DNA from: Aquificales bacterium
GTDB lineage: Bacteria > Aquificota > Aquificia > Aquificales > Aquificaceae
Direction: 5' to 3'
Assembly (NCBI GenBank): GCA_027037055.1
Contig: JALWBR010000038.1
Coordinates: 1 to 64,000 of the forward strand
Length of the DNA: 64,000 nucleotides
Below the pieces are notes generated by a model, which was not told where the DNA came from, ran no database searches, and was given only the letters and a program-made list of their open reading frames with translations. A program made the position numbers and the translations under genes. Positions 26,186 through 36,891 of this stretch are shown here, in pieces; position 1 is the stretch's first letter; each line of letters opens with the position of its first letter.

Positions 26186-27099
26186 AAGACTTCTGATTTC
26201 ACCTTGAACAGATTAAGTATGATATCCACGGGATCTTTTTCTTCCTGTTCCATGGCGAAGGCGGCATAGATGGCTATATCTTGAAACTTCATAGGTTTTA
26301 CGGGCTCTACAGATATCTTTATGAACTTTCCCTTTTCAATAAAGTATTTTATGTCGCTAAGCACCTTTCTGTGGGAAGGGTTATCCGTTTTACTCATCGT
26401 TTCATCAAGGGATTTCTTTATGTTTGCTTTAAATTCTTCGGGCGTTAATCCTTTATCCTTCGCCAAGTACTTTATAAATCTGTCTCTGAAATCCCTATCT
26501 TCATAAGAAAAACCTATCCTGAACAGCTTGAGTGATCCGAGTTCTGACATCATACCAACCATTTCCTCTTCTGTTAGTTCCTTCTTTTCATCAATTTTTT
26601 CCCAGAAACTTGGATCAAAGTTGCCTACATCCACAAAGAAGTCTAAGGAGAAGGCGGGATGTACTATAAGCTTGAAACTTTTTATACTTGCTTTATTTTC
26701 CTTTTTGTTCGCTTCCATATCAATATAGAGATCAAATCTTGTATCCTTATAATCAAGCTCTTTAAAGAAGTTGAGTATTTTGAGATATTCTTTTTTGTTT
26801 TGACCCTCAACCACCTTTAGGTCCTTCATGAGGATGACAAAATTAAAGGGATCATCATATCGGTACACTATCACCTCTTCCGCGAGGAAAGTGTTCTCCT
26901 CGTTATGTATAAACAGCTTCTTTATCCTTATGTTTCTGTCAATCAGCGAAAATTCAACATCCTCATATTCCACATCTCCGCTTTTTGTGAAATCATCTAT
27001 TATTTTTTTTACCTTTCTCTCCATATACTTATCAAGGGCGAATATGCCTATGATAATGATACATATAATTATTACTACCGGGATTATTATCTTTTTCAC
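26182..27099 (-). CDS. Membrane-anchored protein of unknown function
   Basis: 305 residues, GTG start 2 bp after the stop of the methyltransferase gene. Residues 1-22 are one very hydrophobic helix rich in Ile/Val ('[19 protein letters not shown]'), so the protein is an inner-membrane-anchored periplasmic protein or has an uncleaved signal. '[20 protein letters not shown]' after the anchor resembles the opening of AsmA-like/DUF748-type lipid-transport proteins, but the rest does not let me confirm this. The C-terminal half is acidic and helical ('[16 protein letters not shown]', '[16 protein letters not shown]'). No function is proposed. Co-directional with the upstream methyltransferase gene. 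Confidence 0.7.
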
Positions 27100-27101
27100 C
27101 C

Positions 27102-27758
27102 CTACACCCTCACACCAATTATTATAAGCACAGCACCCCCCAGTTTTACCGCTTTTTTCCTTGCGGCAAATCCGTGTCTTTCAAGCTCTTCCCTGATCTG
27201 ATCATAAGTAAGGCTATTTTCAAGGGAGTGGATGAAGAAATCCCACTTGTCCTTACCGAAAATAAGAATACCAGCCGGTTTAAGGATGGTTCGGGAAAGA
27301 AATTTAAGGAAGTCCGTAAGAGCTGTCTTATTAATATCAAGTATTCCTATCCTACCCCCTTCCTTGAGAACCCTGCGCGCTTCTTCTAAAAACCTGTCCC
27401 TGTCGGTAAGGTGTCTGTAAACGAGGGAAAGGGTTATAGTATCCACCTTCTCATCTCCTATGGGCATGTTTTCCGCGTCCGCCACCATAAAGTGACAATC
27501 CTTGCACTTGGGGACAGCCAACCTTAGCATCTCATAGGATAGGTCCAAACCTACAACCGTTTTGTATCCCATCCTTTTACCCTTTACCGCCACCTCACCC
27601 GTGCCCGTACCTACATCTATGAGCACTTCTCCCTTATCCGTATATTCAAGCAATTCCCCTTGCCAGCTGTGGATCCTGCGTAGGGTTACAGCGGATAGGA
27701 ATCTGTCATAAATTCCGCTGACGGAGGAGAAAATATCTCCTATGACCCTCTTATTCAT
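27102..27758 (-). CDS. UbiE/MenG-like class I SAM methyltransferase
   Basis: 218 residues. 'MNKRVIGDIFSSVSGIYDRF' followed by 'LSAVTLRRIHSWQ' resembles the N-terminus of quinone C-methyltransferases. Motif I is 'VLIDVGTGTGEVAVKG', then 'VVGLDLSYEMLRLA', 'DAENMPIGDEKVDTITLSL' and 'EEARRVLKEGGRIGILD'. The UbiE motif 'LRNVTD' reads 'YRHLTD', so the substrate (menaquinone/menathioquinone precursor or other) is uncertain. I start at ATG 27758, exactly 6 nt after a TATAAT. An upstream extension in the same frame would read through the antisense of the cobalamin riboswitch and was rejected. Confidence 0.8.
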   Translation of the reverse strand: MNKRVIGDIFSSVSGIYDRFLSAVTLRRIHSWQGELLEYTDKGEVLIDVGTGTGEVAVKGKRMGYKTVVGLDLSYEMLRLAVPKCKDCHFMVADAENMPIGDEKVDTITLSLVYRHLTDRDRFLEEARRVLKEGGRIGILDINKTALTDFLKFLSRTILKPAGILIFGKDKWDFFIHSLENSLTYDQIREELERHGFAARKKAVKLGGAVLIIIGVRV

Positions 27759-27764
27759 ACTGAC

Positions 27765-27772
27765 ATTATAAT
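27765..27772. promoter_or_regulatory. Palindromic ATTATAAT, double -10 for the methyltransferase gene and the B12 operon
   Basis: The octamer gives TATAAT on the plus strand (27767-27772, predicting a start near 27779, just before the riboswitch) and TATAAT on the minus strand (27770-27765, predicting a start at 27758, the A of the ATG). Same design as the lptB/bioH gap. Confidence 0.55.
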
Positions 27773-27784
27773 ATTCCTTAGAGG

Positions 27785-27976
27785 TTAGGTTTTGGGATGG
27801 CGGTGGGTGTCCGGGAAGTCCGGTGAAAATCCGGCCCTGACCCCGCAGCCGTGAGCAGGGAAGCCGAAAGGCGCCGAAGCCCATAAGCCACTGGCGGAAA
27901 CGGTCTTAAGGCTGTTCCGTCGGGAAGGCGGGCGGAGGTTAAACCCTGCGAGGCGGAAGACCGGCCCACCGCTGCT
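27785..27976 (+). ncRNA. Cobalamin (adenosylcobalamin) riboswitch
   Basis: The conserved B12-box elements appear in order: 'GTCCGGTGAAAATCCGGC' (27818-27834), 'CCCCGCAGCCGTGAGCAGGGAAGCC' region, the core 'AGCCACTGG' (27886-27894) and the 3' 'GGCGGAAGACCGGCC' (27952-27966). The closing helix GCGGTGGG/CCCACCGC (27800-27807/27965-27972) is perfect. Binding of coenzyme B12 normally lowers expression of the downstream genes, which here encode B12 uptake proteins and ribonucleotide reductase. The element is far richer in G+C than its surroundings. Confidence 0.96.
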
Positions 27977-27980
27977 CAGA

Positions 27981-28010
27981 ACCAAACCCTCGGGGGTGAA
28001 AGGGTTTGGT
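27981..28010 (+). promoter_or_regulatory. Riboswitch expression-platform hairpin enclosing the btuF start codon
   Basis: A perfect 10-bp stem, ACCAAACCCT (27981-27990) with AGGGTTTGGT (28001-28010), and a 10-nt loop CGGGGGTGAA. The loop holds the Shine-Dalgarno-like GGGGG, and the 3' arm contains TTG 28006-28008, the only start codon available to btuF in its frame. No U-tract follows, so this is a translational rather than a transcriptional switch. The G-rich loop may pair with a riboswitch loop when B12 is bound (inference). Confidence 0.7.
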
Positions 28011-28722
28011 AGGGTTAATAATTTTACTTATCTTACTAAATGGGCTTACTCTTGGTTGTCCGAGGATTGTAAGCTTAGCCCCTTCAGTTACGGAGACTGT
28101 TGAATATCTGGGTAAGGGTGAGTGTATAGTAGCTACAACGGTCTATTCAAAGGACCGAAGGGAAAAGATAGGGGGGCTTGTTGATCCCGATGTTGAAAAG
28201 ATAATAAGACTAAAACCTGATATAGTTATATCCTCAACCCTAACACCGGGGGACAAAATAAAAGCATTAGAAGGTGCGGGTATAAAGGTAGTTGTCCTTA
28301 GGTGGGACACGCTCGGGGATATTGAGAAGAATATAAGGATTATAGGCAAAATCCTCGGTGTAAAGGACGCGGAGAAGAAAGCAAAGCTTTTCAAGGAAGC
28401 ACTAAGCTCTGAGGAGAAGAAAAAGGGAAGCGCCCTTATATTCGTAGGGTGCAAGGAGCTTATAGTCGCGGGGAAGGGGACTTACCTCTCCGATATTTTT
28501 GAGATGAAAGGTTTTAAAAATCTTGCCACCCGCGAAGGCTGGTACAGGATAAACCTTGAGTATATCTACAAGGTCAAGCCCGATTTCATATTCACCTTCT
28601 GTGATCTGACTGTTAGGTTGCCTGAGCAAATTAAGGTAGTAAGGATTACTTCTGATAGGTTATTGAAGCCTTCTCCCTTTGTTATTTACGCTTTGAGAGA
28701 GATAGGGAGGACCCGTAGGTGA
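28006..28722 (+). CDS. btuF: Cobalamin ABC transporter substrate-binding protein BtuF
   Basis: 238 residues beginning with a TTG inside the riboswitch hairpin. The N-terminal hydrophobic stretch 'VGLIILLILLNGLTLGC' ends in a plausible lipobox (LTLGC), which would tether the protein to a membrane. The mature part begins 'PRIVSLAPSVTETVEYLG', the standard BtuF/FhuD-type (class III) binding protein opening, with 'KPDIVISSTLTPGDKIKALE' and a long backbone helix. The B12 riboswitch and the following permease/ATPase genes define it as the B12-binding component. Its stop overlaps the next gene by 4 bp. Confidence 0.88.
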   Translation: MVGLIILLILLNGLTLGCPRIVSLAPSVTETVEYLGKGECIVATTVYSKDRREKIGGLVDPDVEKIIRLKPDIVISSTLTPGDKIKALEGAGIKVVVLRWDTLGDIEKNIRIIGKILGVKDAEKKAKLFKEALSSEEKKKGSALIFVGCKELIVAGKGTYLSDIFEMKGFKNLATREGWYRINLEYIYKVKPDFIFTFCDLTVRLPEQIKVVRITSDRLLKPSPFVIYALREIGRTRR

Positions 28723-29606
28723 TTATTATCTTGATTCTGTTGGCGGTTTTGTTGTTTCTGCTTTTTACCTTTTACGGAAATCCTAACTCATACATCGTGG
28801 AAAACCTGAGGGTACCGAGGAATACTGTTGCCTTCCTCTGCGGAGGCGGTCTCGCTTTGAGCGGGGCTGTATATCAAACGGTACTTAAAAATCCCCTTGC
28901 GGAACCTTATATCCTTGGGGTTGCGGGCTTTATACTTTTGGGCTATACGATAGGTAAGCTGTTAAGGGCTGAAGAAATAGGCTTGGCACTGTCTTCGGCT
29001 TTGGCGGTACTGTCTGTTATGTATATATCAAAAAGACTGCCACCCAAACACATGCTGTTGGTTGGTGTGGGCGTTAATGCCTTCAGCGTTTCCGCTATAT
29101 TAGTGCTTTACTCCTTTCTTGATCCATACAGTCTTAAGGAATCTGTTACTAAGACGATAGGGGTTGTGCCTTATGTAAGTATATGGGTTGTTTCTATTAT
29201 TTCACTTATAACCCTTCTTATATTTTCCCTGCTTATGTTAAGATCAAGGAATCTTGATCTTCTCAGCGTCGGTGAGCTTGAAGCGATCTCCTTCGGTGTT
29301 AATCCTTTAAGGGAGAGGGTTATTTCCCTTGTGTTAACAACTGTTCTGACCGCCATATTTGTTTCACTTGTGGGTTTGGTAGGTTTCATAGGACTCGTAG
29401 TTCCTCATATTGTGAGATTTATCCATTCTTCCGTTCACTCAAAGGTGCTTCCCCTGTCCTTTCTTGTCGGAGGTATTATCTTCATGGGATCGGATTTCCT
29501 TGCGAGGACGGTTATATATCCCGCGGAGATCCCCGCAGGTGTTTTCTCTTCCTTAATGCTTTCACCCTTGTTTATCGGTGTGGTGTGGAGGTTAAGGCAT
29601 GATTGA
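28719..29606 (+). CDS. btuC: Cobalamin ABC transporter permease BtuC (FecCD family)
   Basis: 295 residues, GTG start, nine or ten hydrophobic helices. The family motifs 'LRVPRNTVAFLCGGGLALSG' and 'AVYQTVLKNPLAEPYILGVA', 'LGVNPLRERV'-like 'SFGVNPLRERVISLVLTTVL' and 'VGLVGFIGLVVPHIVRFIHS' identify a FecCD/BtuC permease; 'GFIGLVVPH' is the coupling region to the ATPase. At 295 residues it is shorter than most (320-340), with a shortened N-terminus of a single helix before the first motif. It overlaps btuF by 4 bp and btuD by 8 bp. Confidence 0.92.
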   Translation: MIIILILLAVLLFLLFTFYGNPNSYIVENLRVPRNTVAFLCGGGLALSGAVYQTVLKNPLAEPYILGVAGFILLGYTIGKLLRAEEIGLALSSALAVLSVMYISKRLPPKHMLLVGVGVNAFSVSAILVLYSFLDPYSLKESVTKTIGVVPYVSIWVVSIISLITLLIFSLLMLRSRNLDLLSVGELEAISFGVNPLRERVISLVLTTVLTAIFVSLVGLVGFIGLVVPHIVRFIHSSVHSKVLPLSFLVGGIIFMGSDFLARTVIYPAEIPAGVFSSLMLSPLFIGVVWRLRHD

Positions 29607-30276
29607 GGTTTACAACTTGTATGTAAAAAAGGGTGAGAGGGAAGTGCTTAATGGTGTGTCAATGGAGGTTGAGAGGGGTGAGACGGTTGTTCTTATAGGA
29701 GAAAACGGCTCAGGGAAAACTACACTCATAAGGGCTATAACTGGACTGGAGGATTATAAGGGTGAAATATACATAGATGGTGTGGAACCTGAAAAGGGTG
29801 GAAAGGAAAAAATATCCGTTCTGAGTCAGGATTTTAATCCTATAGCTTACCTGAAGGTTTCGGAGATTATAGGATTTTGCGATTCTGTGGATGAGGAGGT
29901 AATAAAGGAGTTGGGGCTTAATGGTATATTTAGTAGCAGGATCGGAAATCTTTCCGGCGGTGAGAGAAGGCGGGTAGGTATAGGCTTTGCGCTTATGAAT
30001 GATCGCCCTTATATAATTCTGGATGAGCCCACCGCAAACCTTGATATATCCTACATCAACAGGCTTATAAGCCTTCTAAGAAGGAAGGTTGAAGAGGGTA
30101 AGGGGTTATTAATAGCTACCCACGATCTCTTCTTCGGAAGGGAGGTGGGTGACAGGTTTGTATTTTTGAAGGATGGTAAGGTTGCGTATATAACGAATGA
30201 AAAAGGCTTTAACTATGCCTGTACGAAGGTTTTCGGGACGAACATGTACACGGAGGTAATGAAGAGGTGCGTATAG
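29599..30276 (+). CDS. btuD: Cobalamin ABC transporter ATP-binding protein BtuD
   Basis: 225 residues. Walker A 'GENGSGKTTLIRA', Q-loop 'VLSQDFNPIAYLKVSEI', signature 'LSGGERRRVGIGFALM', Walker B 'YIILDEPTANLDISYIN' and H-loop 'LIATHDLFFGREVGDR' are all intact. It energises the BtuC permease dimer. Shorter than typical siderophore/B12 ATPases (about 250). Overlaps the permease gene by 8 bp and the following binding-protein gene by 10 bp, so all are translationally coupled. Confidence 0.92.
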   Translation: MIEVYNLYVKKGEREVLNGVSMEVERGETVVLIGENGSGKTTLIRAITGLEDYKGEIYIDGVEPEKGGKEKISVLSQDFNPIAYLKVSEIIGFCDSVDEEVIKELGLNGIFSSRIGNLSGGERRRVGIGFALMNDRPYIILDEPTANLDISYINRLISLLRRKVEEGKGLLIATHDLFFGREVGDRFVFLKDGKVAYITNEKGFNYACTKVFGTNMYTEVMKRCV

Positions 30277-31025
30277 TCTGCCTTGCACCGGAGATAATAC
30301 CCATAATCAATGATTTGGGGGCTATAAACAGGGTTGTAGGAGGTGTTTACTACGGAGGGAGGTGGGAATTTAGAAGGGTGGGTACATATACAAAATGCAA
30401 TAAGGAAGAGATAAAGGCTTTAAAGCCTGATATCATATTCACTTCCACTTACTTGCAGTCGCAAATGGCGAAGGAGCTTGCCTCTGAAGGGTTTAATGTT
30501 GTTCATTTTAACCCCTTATCCCTGGGTGATATTCCGCTGACTGTAAAAACGGTAGGAGAGATCATAGGAAGAATTAGGGAGGCGGAGGTGATAATAAATA
30601 GGTGGTATGATACCATTGAAGAGATAAGGGGTATGTCCGCGTATGTAGGCGGAGTAAGGGTTTACTTTGAAGAATGGGATGATCCTCCCATATCGTGTGT
30701 AAGGTGGGTTTCAGAGGGTATTGAGCTTGCGGGGGGTGTTGATGTATTCAGAGATCTAAGGAAAGAAAGGGCTGAAGAGAGGATTGTTGATCCTATGGAG
30801 GTGGTAAGGAGAAAACCGGAGGTCATATTTGTCTCTTGGTGTGGTAAAAGATTTAAAAGGGAGAAACTGATGGAAAGGAAAGGTTGGGAAAATATACCTG
30901 CGGTAAGGGAGGGCAGGATTTTCAGAGTAGAACCTGAATATATTTTGCAACCTAATCATAGGGTTTTGGTAGGAATAAAAAAGATTCAGAGTGTTTTAAT
31001 GGAGGTAAGCCATGCTTGTTGTTAA
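30267..31025 (+). CDS. BtuF-like cobalamin-binding protein without signal peptide
   Basis: 252 residues, GTG start with a GAAGAGG just upstream, inside the end of btuD. It begins directly with '[20 protein letters not shown]', the same class III binding-protein opening as btuF but without any signal sequence or membrane anchor, so it should remain in the cytoplasm. '[20 protein letters not shown]', '[20 protein letters not shown]' and '[13 protein letters not shown]' are BtuF-type. A cytoplasmic B12-binding or trafficking protein is the simplest reading; the function of such paralogues is not established. Its end overlaps nrdA by 14 bp. Confidence 0.72.
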
Positions 31026-33309
31026 GAGGGGTGGAAGGCTTGAGGAACTGGATATAAACAAGATAAGGGTTGTACTTCAATTTGCGTGCAAGGGTCTTGA
31101 TGTAGATCCCTTAGAACTTGAAGCGGATGCACATATACAGTTTAAAGACGGTATAACAACTGAGGAGATACAACAGCTTTTAATAAGGACGGCAGCGGAA
31201 AAGATATCTCCCGAAAAGACAGATTGGCAGTATGTGGCTGCCAGATTGCTCGTGTACGATCTTTACAAGAAGGTATCAAGGGTGAGGGGATACGCCATTA
31301 AGGAGTCTGATGGAACCTTCCAGCCTTATGACAAGGGTGGGTTTTATGAGTTTATTAAAAAATATGTAGAAAAAGGTATATACGGGGAATATTTGTTAGA
31401 GAAATATAAGGAGGATGACATAAGAAAACTGGGTGAAGCTATTCGTGAAGATAGGGACCTTCTTTTCAACTATACGGGATTGAAGGTTTTAACAGACAGG
31501 TACCTTGTTAGGGATGAGGACGGAAGGATAATTGAGCTTCCCCAAGAGATGTACATGCTCATTGCCATGACCATAGCCATCCCCGAAGGAGAAAGGAAGG
31601 TTGAGTATGCTTTAAAATTTTACGAAGTCCTCTCTCAGCATAAAGTTTCCCTTGCCACGCCGACCCTCATGAATGCGAGAAGACCCCATACACAGCTTTC
31701 AAGCTGTTTTGTTCTGACCGTTGAAGACGATCTCTATGACATATTTGATAATATTCAAAAGGCTGCACAGATCTCCAAGTTTGCTGGAGGACTGGGTATA
31801 TACCTCGGTAAAATAAGGGCTTCCGGTGCTCCGATAAGGAAGTTCAAAGGGGCTTCATCAGGTGTTGTACCCGTTATAAGGGTTATAAATGATGTTATGA
31901 CCTATGTGGATCAGCTCGGGATGAGGAAGGGAAGTGCATCAATTACCCTTGATATATGGCATAAGGACATCCTTGATTTCCTTGAGGTGAAAACGAATAC
32001 GGGAGACGAAAGGAAGAAAGCCCATGATATACACCCCGCGGTAAGCATACCGGACATATTTATGAAGAGGTTGAAGGAAAGAAAGAAATGGACCCTATTT
32101 GATCCTTATTACACTAAGAATGTAAGGGATGGCAAAAACCTTGAAGATTTTTACGGTGAGGAGTTTGAGGAGCTTTATATAAAGCTGGAGAAGGAGCTTC
32201 CCCCCGAAGCTAAAAGGGAGGTTGATACCTTTGAACTGTGGAAGAGGCTTATAACCGTAGCCTTTGAAACAGGAGAACCCTATGTATTCTTCAGGGATTC
32301 TGCTAACAGGTTAAATCCTAATAAACATGCGGGAATGGTTTATTCAAGCAACCTCTGTATGGAGATTGTGCAGAATATGTCCCCTACGGTTCAAAAGGGT
32401 TGTGAGCTTGACAGGACTACGGGAGAGATAGTATGCAGGAAGAAGGCGGGTGATGTGGTTGTTTGTAATCTGGGGTCTGTTAACCTTGGAAAGGTGCATA
32501 CGGAGGAGGAGATAAGTAAAACCTTGCCACTTCTTGTCAGAATGCTTGACAATGTAATAGAACTTAACTACTACGCTGTTCCAGAAGCAGAATATACAAA
32601 CAAGCGTTACAGGGCAATAGGTATAGGTGTTTCAAATTACCATTATTGCCTCGTTAAGCACGGTATAAGATGGGAGTCGGAGGATCACCTTAAATTCGCG
32701 GATAGACTCTTTGAGCTTATAGCCTTTTACGCACTGAAGGGAAGTCTTGAGCTTGCTAAGGAGAGGGGCAAGTATTCTCTATTTGATGGGTCGGACTGGA
32801 GTAAGGGTATATTCTTCGGAAGATCTATTGAGGATATAGAAAGGGATAGCGAAAGGAACGGAAACAATCTTCCGTGGAGGGAGCTTTATGAGGATATAAA
32901 GGAGAACGGTATAAGGAACGCCTACCTGCTTGCCCTGATGCCTACGGGTTCAACATCCCTCATAATGGGAGCAACCCCTTCCGTTGATCCTATCTTTGCC
33001 AAGTATTACAAGGAAGAGAATATGAGCGGTATACTTCCTCAGGTTCCTCCAGAGGTTGACAGGTTCTTCTGGCATTACAAATCCGCCTATCTTATAGATC
33101 AGAGGTGGAGTATTGAAGCTGCTGCGGTAAGACAGAAATGGATAGATCAATCCCAGTCTCTGAATCTTTTTATAGATCCAGAAAATATAGACGGTCCCAC
33201 CCTTGCGAGCCTTTACGAGCTTGCATGGGAGAGGGGCCTTAAGACCGTTTATTATTTAAGATCAAAGTCAAAAACTGAAGTGGAGGAGTGTGAGTCATGC
33301 TCGACCTGA
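31012..33309 (+). CDS. nrdA: Class I ribonucleoside-diphosphate reductase alpha subunit
   Basis: 765 residues. An N-terminal ATP-cone ('[20 protein letters not shown]') gives dATP control. The catalytic barrel has '[20 protein letters not shown]' (C232, first of the redox pair), 'NLCMEIVQN' with the radical cysteine region, '[12 protein letters not shown]' and '[20 protein letters not shown]'. The C-terminal shuttle pair is C760-ES-C763 ('EECESCST'). It reduces ribonucleotides to deoxyribonucleotides and needs the iron protein NrdB, not B12. No intein interrupts it. It sits inside the B12-riboswitch operon, overlapping genes on both sides (14 and 13 bp). Confidence 0.97.
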
Positions 33310-34337
33310 TGACAAGGAAAAGGATTTTTAATCCGGAAGGTGACAGGGAGGTTGACAAGAGAAGGATAATAGGCGGTAACCCCACCAACATAATAGAGCT
33401 TAACAATGTAAGGTACAGATGGGCTTACGATCTTTACAGGACAATGGGCATATCCAACTTCTGGATACCTGACGAGATAGCCATGATGGAAGATAAAAAG
33501 CAGTACGAGAGCCTACTGTCGCCTTATGAAAAAAGGGCTTATGAACTTGTTCTCTCCTTCCTTATAGCCCTTGACTCCTTTCAGGTTGATATGTTAAAGG
33601 AATTTGGAAGATACTTTACCGCACCAGAGGTTGTTATGTCCGTTACCGCTCAAGAGTTTCAGGAATCAATACATGCTTACTCTTATCAGTACATCCTTGA
33701 AAGCGTTGTTGATCCCGTAAAGGCGGACGAGGTTTACAACTACTGGCGGGAGGATGAAAGGTTACTTGAGCGAAACAGTGTTATAGCGGAAGTTTATAAC
33801 AACTTTATAGAGAAGCCCACCGAAGAGAACTTTATAAAGGCAATTTTCGGCAATTATGTATTGGAAAGCCTATACTTTTATTCGGGCTTTGCCATATTCT
33901 ACACCCTCGGAAGACAGGGAAAGATGACTAACACCGTTCAACAGATAAAGTACATAAACAGGGATGAGCTTACCCATGTTACACTGTTCAGAAATATTAT
34001 CCATTCTGTGAAGGAGGAGAATCCCGATTTCTTTCCTCCTGAGATGGTAAACTGGATATATGAGTTCTTTAAATTTGCCACATATAAGGAGATAGAGTGG
34101 GGCAAGTATGTTACGGGGGGTCAGATATTGGGTATAAATGACATACTTATAGAAAGGTACATAAAATATCTGTGCAATTTGAGGCTTACACAGATAGGGT
34201 TGGATCCTTTGTTCCCCGAGATAACGGATAATCCCATGAAGTGGATAGATGAGTTCAGAAAGATAAATAATACAAAGACTGATTTCTTCCAGAGAAAACC
34301 GCAGACCTATTCAAAGGCAAGTGAATTAAAATGGTGA
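33297..34337 (+). CDS. nrdB: Class I ribonucleoside-diphosphate reductase beta subunit
   Basis: 346 residues. Di-iron ligands are D93 ('ALDSFQ'), E123 and H126 ('[10 protein letters not shown]'), E190 ('LESLYFY'), E224 and H227 ('RDELTH'). The radical Tyr corresponds to Y130. It generates the tyrosyl radical passed to NrdA. In Aquifex aeolicus the beta subunit gene is reported to carry an intein; this gene is uninterrupted. It overlaps nrdA by 13 bp and btuB by 7 bp, placing it inside the B12-sensing transcription unit. Confidence 0.96.
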
Positions 34338-36160
34338 AGATGAAAAGGCTTCTAATTCTGTTAGGATTGGGCTTGGGCTTTATAAGGGCGCAGGATCTTG
34401 AGCTTAAAAGCGTTGAAGTAAGGGCTTCGCGTCTTAGAGAAGTTGCAACCCAAGGTACGGAAGATATGATCATTATGGACAAAAGGGAAATAGAGAAAAA
34501 GAGTGTTACAAGTATCTATGAAGCCCTCTTTGACGAGATGGGAATAGACGGGGCCAGGACGGGGCTTTTCGGTGCACAATCAAGCATTTATATAAGAGGC
34601 GGAAGAAGTAGCCACATACTTTTTATGTTTGAGGGTGTACCCCTTAACGATCCTGTAGGTCTTGGAACATCTCAGTTCAGCAGGGTACCGCCCATCCTTG
34701 ACAGGATGGAGATACTGAAGGGACCTCAGAGTGTATTATACGGTTCGGATGCTATGAGCGGGCTTGTTTATCTTAGCCTTGACAGGGGAAGGGGCAAACC
34801 CGAACTTACCCTTGATTTTATGTACGGTGAGAGGGATACATTCAGAACTATGATAGGTTACAAGGGTTCCGTTGACAGGATCCATTTCAATATAAGGGGT
34901 TCTTTGATAAACACAAAGAATTATGACTTCACAAGAAGAAACGATTCCGCGGAGGATGTTGATTTTTACGGCAACTCCTCTTTAGCTTTTAAGGTAGGTT
35001 ATGTATGGGAAAGGGCTATCCTTGATGTATTCTTCCTCGGTTACGACGGAAGACTTAACTTTGACAACTGTGCGGATAGAATAGATGCAAAATGTATTGA
35101 AAATTCCCTTATGAATTCTGGCGGGGTTAAGATAAGCCTTTATCCATTAAATAATTACAATATAAAATTCACCATAGGTAGAACGGATGCGGAAAGGGTA
35201 TATTCTGGGGATGCTTCCTCCTTCGGAAGGTACAGGGGGCTTGTTTTCTATTCTGACATTGATAACTACATTAAGTTCAAGAAATTTGCCCTCTCTTTTG
35301 GTGGTACGATGAAGGAGGAATCGGGTGAAACGAGTACAATCCCTGTAACCCGTTTCAGAACTAATTCAATATATTCAAATATCCTTTTCAGACCCATAAG
35401 GTACTGGAATATTGAGGGGGGTATAAGATTTAACGACTCGGATACCTTTGAAGACAGAACCGTTTATAAAGCAGGTACATCCTTTTATGTAAGACCCCTC
35501 AATGTTATCTTTTACGGAAGTTATGCAACAGCCTACAGAACGCCCAACATTTTTGAATATACCTACGGTAATACAGAGGGATTGAAACCCGAAGAGAGTG
35601 CGGGTTATCAGGCAGGTTTGAAGGGAAGATGGTGCAGGTTGTTTGCGGGTTTCGGTATATATGAAACCTTTTACAGGAACCTTATAGATTATGATAGCAA
35701 TACATTTTCTTACATAAATCTCGGAGAGGCGAGGGCGGAAGGTAAGGAAGTATATATGGGTGTTTATATAACGAGATCCCTGACCGCCAGGGCTTTTTTT
35801 AATGATACATATTCTTACTGTTTGACAGGATGCGGATATCTCTCACCCAAGGAGCAAGTTCCCCGGATACCGAGGGAGAAGTGGGGCTTTATACTTAGAG
35901 GCACAATGGGGAATTTTGATACAAATCTCAGCTTTGTAAGGATGGGGGACAGAAAAGATGTAACATATGATAGTGGTCAACCTTCCCTTGTAAAACTTAA
36001 GGGTTACAGTTTATTGAATGCATACATAGGTTACAGGGTAGGGGAGAGATATAAGCTTTATGTGTACGGTATAAATCTTTTGAATGAAGATTATGAGGAG
36101 GTTTACGGTTATAATGTGTTAAGGAGATCCATATACGCGGGGGTGGAGGTGAATTACTGA
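34331..36160 (+). CDS. btuB: TonB-dependent outer membrane receptor, BtuB-like
   Basis: 609 residues with a short signal peptide ('KRLLILLGLGLGFIRA'). The TonB box region is followed by the plug domain: 'SSIYIRGGRSSHILFMFEGV' then 'PLNDPV', and 'LDRMEILKGPQSVLYGSDAM' with 'SGLVYLSL'. The rest is a 22-strand-type barrel of alternating aromatic strands, ending in 'SIYAGVEVNY' with a terminal aromatic, as outer membrane insertion needs. Length fits BtuB (about 600). Vitamin B12 as substrate is inferred from the riboswitch operon. ATG 34331 overlaps nrdB by 7 bp; ATG 34340 is an alternative start. Confidence 0.87.
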   Translation: MVKMKRLLILLGLGLGFIRAQDLELKSVEVRASRLREVATQGTEDMIIMDKREIEKKSVTSIYEALFDEMGIDGARTGLFGAQSSIYIRGGRSSHILFMFEGVPLNDPVGLGTSQFSRVPPILDRMEILKGPQSVLYGSDAMSGLVYLSLDRGRGKPELTLDFMYGERDTFRTMIGYKGSVDRIHFNIRGSLINTKNYDFTRRNDSAEDVDFYGNSSLAFKVGYVWERAILDVFFLGYDGRLNFDNCADRIDAKCIENSLMNSGGVKISLYPLNNYNIKFTIGRTDAERVYSGDASSFGRYRGLVFYSDIDNYIKFKKFALSFGGTMKEESGETSTIPVTRFRTNSIYSNILFRPIRYWNIEGGIRFNDSDTFEDRTVYKAGTSFYVRPLNVIFYGSYATAYRTPNIFEYTYGNTEGLKPEESAGYQAGLKGRWCRLFAGFGIYETFYRNLIDYDSNTFSYINLGEARAEGKEVYMGVYITRSLTARAFFNDTYSYCLTGCGYLSPKEQVPRIPREKWGFILRGTMGNFDTNLSFVRMGDRKDVTYDSGQPSLVKLKGYSLLNAYIGYRVGERYKLYVYGINLLNEDYEEVYGYNVLRRSIYAGVEVNY

Positions 36161-36816
36161 TGGGGGACCTTAAAAATAAAGCTCTTGCCGTTATAGAGGG
36201 GTTGAAAAATATTTATAAAGATCCGAAACTTGAGCTTGAATACAATAATCCCTTTGAATTGCTTGTGGAAGCTATATTGGCAGCTCAGGAATCGGATAAA
36301 AAGGTTAACGCTGTTATGAAGGAGTTCTTCAAAAAATACAAGGGACCTATTGATATAGCAAGTGCACCCTTAGAGGAGCTTGAAAAAGATCTTAGTTCTA
36401 TAAACTTCTATCGTAGAAAGGCAAAACTGTTAAAGAGCTGTTGTTCAGCGCTTATAGAACTTTTCGGGGGTAAAATACCTTCAAAGGTTGAGGATCTTAT
36501 AAAGCTTCCGGGCGTAGGTAGGAAAACCGCAAATATGATAGTGGGTGGTGCTTTCGGTAAGCCTGCGATAATAGTTGACAGGCATGTTATGAGAGTGTCA
36601 CAGCGTATAGGTTTTACTACGCAGAAGGACCCTGATAGGATAGAGATGGAATTGAGGGAGATAGTTCCAGAGGACAAGTGGACCTTATTTTCTTTGCTAC
36701 TTCTTAATCACGGAAAGACCATCTGTGCCGCCAAGGATCCGAGATGCGGTGAATGTCCCGTATCAAAGGAATGCGATTACTACAACCAATCTGTTTTGAA
36801 TCATAATAAGGATTAG
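36160..36816 (+). CDS. nth: Endonuclease III
   Basis: 218 residues. The helix-hairpin-helix 'LPGVGRKTANMIVGGAFG' contains catalytic Lys122 and is followed by Asp140 ('IVDRHVMRV'), matching K120/D138 of E. coli Nth. The [4Fe-4S] ligands C189-x6-C196-x2-C199-x5-C205 ('CAAKDPRCGECPVSKEC') are complete. It removes oxidised pyrimidines and nicks the abasic site. The first base of the ATG is the last base of btuB's stop, so this repair gene is the last member of the B12-riboswitch operon. Confidence 0.96.
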   Translation: MGDLKNKALAVIEGLKNIYKDPKLELEYNNPFELLVEAILAAQESDKKVNAVMKEFFKKYKGPIDIASAPLEELEKDLSSINFYRRKAKLLKSCCSALIELFGGKIPSKVEDLIKLPGVGRKTANMIVGGAFGKPAIIVDRHVMRVSQRIGFTTQKDPDRIEMELREIVPEDKWTLFSLLLLNHGKTICAAKDPRCGECPVSKECDYYNQSVLNHNKD

Positions 36817-36853
36817 TTTAAATAATAATATTTTAATAGGCGATTTTTTTTAT

Positions 36854-36859
36854 TATAAT
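36854..36859 (+). promoter_or_regulatory. -10 box of the 2-oxoacid oxidoreductase operon
   Basis: TATAAT in a very A/T-rich 75-bp gap, with TTTTAA (36831-36836) 17 bp upstream as a weak -35. The predicted start near 36866 gives a leader of about 26 nt that includes AGGAGG (36879-36884) before the ATG at 36892. Confidence 0.5.
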
Positions 36860-36891
36860 AATAAGCCCCATCCTTTTTAGGAGGCGCTGTA

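Follow-up and report, generated by a model that had tools for sequence, protein, structure and literature searches.

Does a single cobalamin riboswitch control both the import of vitamin B12 and the synthesis of DNA precursors in this Aquificales bacterium? The window, meaning the whole 64,000-nucleotide (nt) stretch analyzed, is from contig 38 of a 1.67-Mb genome with a completeness of 99.96%. In it, a riboswitch is followed by genes for B12 uptake (btu), among which lie the genes for class I ribonucleotide reductase (nrdAB). The preliminary description proposed that one RNA sensor would govern both processes. That proposal is unproven, but the leader RNA, the gene order, the enzyme content of the genome, and the relatives of the locus all bear on it.

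Gene content and order of the run

The preliminary description placed eight continuously overlapping genes after the riboswitch, and the analysis bore this out. Eight plus-strand open reading frames follow in the order btuF1, btuC, btuD, btuF2, nrdA, nrdB, btuB, and nth (Table 1), and the gap is negative in all seven neighboring pairs from btuF1 to nth (−4, −8, −10, −14, −13, −7, and −1). Overlaps are common in the window, being found for 16 of the 41 other same-strand neighbors; thus, seven out of seven is tight yet not extraordinary. The overlaps may be read as support for an operon, not as proof of one. In compact genomes unrelated genes are often joined, which counts against reading the run as an operon for B12 scarcity.

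Table 1. Positions in the window of the leader elements, the genes of the run, and the gap that follows them
Feature	Position	Strand	Basis and remarks
TATAAT-like −10 element, presumed operon promoter	27767..27773	+	Just 5′ of the aptamer; invariant in three species
Cobalamin riboswitch aptamer	27788..27983	+	RF00174, 75.5 bits (gathering score, 31.5); full model, 1-189
L5 loop bases ACCCCG, candidate partner of L13	27840..27845	+	Sequence and RF00174 alignment; invariant in three species
P13 hairpin	27982..28009	+	9-bp stem, 27982-27990/28001-28009; loop, 27991-28000
btuF1, secreted B12-binding protein	28006..28722	+	Peripla_BP_2; hydrophobic N terminus; UUG start; BtuF NCBIfam match below cutoff
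btuC, permease	28719..29606	+	FecCD
btuD, ATPase	29599..30276	+	ABC_tran; top NCBIfam match is corrinoid ABC ATPase, below cutoff
btuF2, BtuF-like protein	30267..31025	+	Peripla_BP_2; best solved match is a vitamin B12-binding protein
nrdA, class I ribonucleotide reductase alpha with ATP cone	31012..33309	+	Family searches (class I NrdA); nearest solved chain, 7agj
nrdB, class I reductase beta	33297..34337	+	Family searches (Ribonuc_red_sm); nearest solved chain, 7ail
btuB, TonB-dependent B12 receptor	34331..36160	+	Best NCBIfam match TonB-B12, below cutoff; best solved match, E. coli BtuB
nth, endonuclease III, final gene of the run	36160..36816	+	TIGR01083, above cutoff
Gap after nth	36817..36891	+	75 nt, 95% identical in three species; TATAAT-like element before the por genes

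Because the Btu proteins scored below the strict NCBIfam equivalog cutoffs, their "B12" names rest partly on the riboswitch and on their top-ranking relatives. Judged by eye, the product of btuF2, a gene that overlaps nrdA by 14 nt, lacks a signal peptide, and it may for that reason be a cytoplasmic corrinoid-binding protein. No tie to B12 was found for nth, and its presence in the run is probably incidental. The gap after nth probably serves as promoter for the por cluster and marks where the operon ends; riboswitch control into the por genes is unlikely, since this conserved promoter-like gap intervenes.

A stretch of 82 nt across the nrdA/nrdB junction (33247-33328) is identical in three species, whereas the other third positions of nrdA agree in 69%. 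A structured element there was rejected because the stretch folds no better than its shuffles do (z of 0.46).

The leader RNA

The aptamer is the only match to RF00174 in the whole genome. The −10 element just before it was missed by the consensus scan, and so its role as the operon promoter is presumed. The L5 bases are complementary to the sequence CGGGGGU in L13 (27991-27997), and L5 is C-rich, as in RF00174. Loop L13 contains the Shine-Dalgarno sequence of btuF1, GGGGGUGA, and the 3′ arm of P13 contains its UUG start codon. Three species have the same bases throughout the P13 stem and the two pairing segments; L007, one of the three, differs at one further loop base. P13 is followed by UAGGGUUAAUAAUUUU, has no U-run on its 3′ side, and does not appear in the list of terminators. 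An intrinsic-terminator riboswitch at P13 was rejected for want of the U-run.

To judge from these features, the leader looks like a canonical L5-L13 kissing-loop switch of the translational type. With the Shine-Dalgarno sequence in L13, the start codon in P13, and no intrinsic terminator, B12 most likely blocks the translation of btuF1. The riboswitch class points to adenosylcobalamin as the presumptive ligand. Folding of the ligand-free leader gave −110.7 kcal/mol with P13, −110.0 kcal/mol with P13 open, and a minimum of −115.9 kcal/mol, values that do not separate the ON and OFF states.

Each of seven genomes from another Aquificota family (f4) has a pair of riboswitches: one precedes btuF-btuC-(btuD)-btuB, and the other precedes a metE-like gene (identified from its N terminus and, in one genome, confirmed by a family search). 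The kissing pair CCCCG/CGGGG is common to the btu leaders of all seven and to the leader described here. In the f4 P13 stem, 5 of 7 pairs have changed on both sides, with a covariation score above those of all 500 shuffles; since the alignment consists of six distinct short segments picked by hand, this result is supportive only. The f4 metE leaders (L133, L136, L138, L139, L142, L144, and L145) have a second long hairpin after P13, and their L5 reads CCUCG, not CCCCG.

The f4 loci resemble the present one in phylum, leader architecture, and btu gene order, and in having a B12-independent isozyme behind a B12 switch. They differ in having two separate switches, metE in place of nrdAB, and no nrdAB between btuD and btuB. 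Relative to the f4 btu order, btuF2-nrdA-nrdB lies between btuD and btuB here, and nth comes after btuB. In Mycobacterium tuberculosis metE, conserved L5 cytidines kiss L13 and control is translational, with Rho probably augmenting it (PMC11260477). That leader is like ours in its kissing loop, its translational control, and a likely contribution of Rho; it differs in the gene controlled and in the arrangement of the expression platform.

B12-dependent enzymes in the genome and relatives of the locus

The preliminary description predicted a B12-dependent class II reductase (NrdJ) elsewhere in the genome, and a search for nrdJ found one. Contig 22 encodes a 724-amino-acid (aa) NrdJ that matches TIGR02504 with 557.8 bits against a cutoff of 399.95. 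Its best structural relative is the B12-dependent enzyme of T. maritima, with which the NPC.E motif and the cysteines align. The enzyme is split: an overlapping 170-aa chain follows, with a TSCPD domain matching the C-terminal part of B12-dependent reductases. A split class II reductase is reported for Pseudomonas aeruginosa (PMC4520616). In NrdJ (L005:7168-9342, G000 contig 22), the alignment to the T. maritima enzyme is interrupted by about 85 residues (roughly 229-315).

The genome also encodes a class III reductase, NrdD, and thus NrdAB is not the sole B12-free backup. The adenosyltransferase BtuR is present; searches for a PduO-type adenosyltransferase and for QueG found neither. One other candidate B12 user, an apparent cysteine desulfurase (judged from its sequence) with a lone weak match to a B12-binding domain (19.4 bits, below the cutoff), was rejected. 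Within the searches for B12-binding domains and QueG, NrdJ was the only B12-dependent enzyme found. There is no second riboswitch near nrdJ, nrdD, or the gene for BtuR. A search of the genome found no NrdR, and control of the reductase by NrdR was rejected on that account.

The distribution of these elements was determined among 121 genomes. The closest NrdA records are in the Aquificales metagenome-assembled genomes L006 (98%) and L007 (97%), in which the gene order is identical; because the genes flanking the run are conserved there as well, synteny alone discriminates little. Within the family, RF00174 was found in three members of this genus only. A fourth genome of the genus (G003) has no match to the riboswitch, btuC, or class I NrdA; it is 69% complete, and so the assembly probably lacks the operon. 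Strong BtuC matches in the family were likewise limited to this genus, with 32% matches in two genomes of g10. The genus has full-length NrdJ matches (94 to 97%) in its other three genomes, whereas the rest of the family shows only class I-like ones, at about 30%. Partial NrdJ matches (37 to 41%) occur in families f3 and f4. Thus, within the family, the riboswitch, a strongly matching btuC, and this NrdJ are each confined to this genus.

In about 30 other Aquificaceae loci, nrdA lacks btu, nth, and por genes in its neighborhood, although several of these contigs are short. NrdA groups with Aquificaceae, which means that nrdAB belongs natively to the family and has changed position. In several Aquificaceae (L056, L063, L064, and L068), about 1 kb of other sequence interrupts nrdA, and the same is seen for nrdB in two (L013 and L020); an intein or intron would have such an effect.

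Reach of the switch to nrdAB

The direct effect of the switch, as predicted from the leader, would fall on the first gene, btuF1, only. The ribosome site of nrdA is a good one (about −10.7 kcal/mol with the anti-Shine-Dalgarno sequence), and the switch is 3 kb away, so independent translation of nrdA could occur; nrdB and nth, too, each have a good site. Because direct control would be confined to btuF1 and nrdA has its own ribosome site, control of nrdAB needs either coupling or Rho polarity. Rho is encoded in the genome. A scan for terminators and promoters, which also misses the likely main promoter, gave no convincing site between the riboswitch and nrdAB. The consensus scan gave no plus-strand promoter-like site from 27058 to 31012; as it also missed the presumed operon promoter, its silence before nrdA is weak evidence. 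Third-codon conservation before nrdA shows no excess over that elsewhere.

From these observations we infer ligand binding, the OFF direction of the switch, and its physiological purpose. When adenosylcobalamin is plentiful, it would bind the leader, whereupon L5 (CCCC) would kiss L13 (GGGG) and P13 would be stabilized. The stable P13 would hide the Shine-Dalgarno sequence and the UUG start codon of btuF1, and the operon would be turned down. Repression of btuF1 would then spread to nrdAB by overlap coupling, by Rho-dependent polarity, or by both. We consider it fairly likely that the run is in this way an operon for B12 scarcity, in which B12 represses the import genes and nrdAB through one leader, including the reach of 3 kb.

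It is unlikely that the switch governs the import genes only, with nrdAB and nth in the run by chance and expressed constitutively, either from internal transcription starts or because the long mRNA is translated independently at these genes. The action of the leader on the first gene, the good ribosome sites of nrdA, nrdB, and nth, the frequency of overlaps in the window, and the lack of a B12 link for nth all agree with such an arrangement. However, nrdAB does not come last in the run but is enclosed by btuD and btuB, and before nrdA there is neither a promoter candidate nor excess conservation. Furthermore, other Aquificaceae have nrdAB elsewhere, and this is the sole genus of the family with a full-length NrdJ, where repression of nrdAB by B12 makes sense. 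The preliminary description also offered the alternative that the transport genes had joined an essential operon; that import genes were inserted into an nrdAB-nth operon, which the switch tunes with no regulatory purpose, is very improbable, for although nrdA is native and groups with Aquificaceae, the roughly 30 other family loci have nrdAB without btu genes or nth nearby, and the leader and the btuF-C-D..B order, with btuF2-nrdA-nrdB sitting between its btuD and btuB, are those of the free-standing btu operons of f4.

Control of a reductase by a B12 riboswitch has precedents. A 2014 list of cobalamin riboswitch candidates includes Aquificales (PMC4227106), and nrdD of a Chlorobium is under a cobalamin riboswitch (PMC8620254). 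In Streptomyces, a cobalamin riboswitch is reported over nrdABS (PMC4991794). Streptomyces coelicolor, as described there (citing Borovok 2006), is like our case in having a riboswitch over class I nrdAB and NrdJ in the genome. As in that nrdABS type, nrdA and nrdB here are on the same strand as the switch, being the fifth and sixth genes after it, and NrdJ is in the same genome. In the same account, the S. coelicolor switch stands before the reductase operon itself and acts on transcription, whereas here the B12 importer genes come first, btuD and btuB enclose nrdAB, and the leader appears to be translational.

Two other papers place cobalamin riboswitches before reductase genes, namely nrdAB and nrdDG of Propionibacterium acnes (PMC3848588) and, in delta-proteobacteria that have NrdJ, nrdDG (PMC545781). 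Both cases resemble ours in the proposed repression of a B12-independent reductase where NrdJ is present; they differ in having separate riboswitches for the reductase and the transport genes, with no shared operon described in the passages concerned. That riboswitches repress B12-independent reductases where the genome has NrdJ is thus already known; the new element is import and reductase behind one switch. We found no description of import genes and nrdAB behind one switch in the literature searched, many subscription papers lying outside that search.

There is about an even chance that one translational riboswitch makes this run a dedicated module for B12 economy in DNA precursor synthesis, in which a single RNA both increases the import of cofactor for NrdJ and brings about production of the cofactor-free NrdAB. 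We are equally divided on whether sensing, supply, and bypass have been fused in one operon in a genus where NrdJ is the only B12-dependent enzyme detected. With this locus, control by B12 riboswitches over which ribonucleotide reductase is used would extend to thermophilic Aquificota, and a general question becomes testable, namely the distance over which a translational riboswitch can act along a lengthy operon of overlapping genes. As a compact natural example, it seems to put the supply of a cofactor and the means of doing without it under one sensor, and only one B12-dependent enzyme was found that this would serve.
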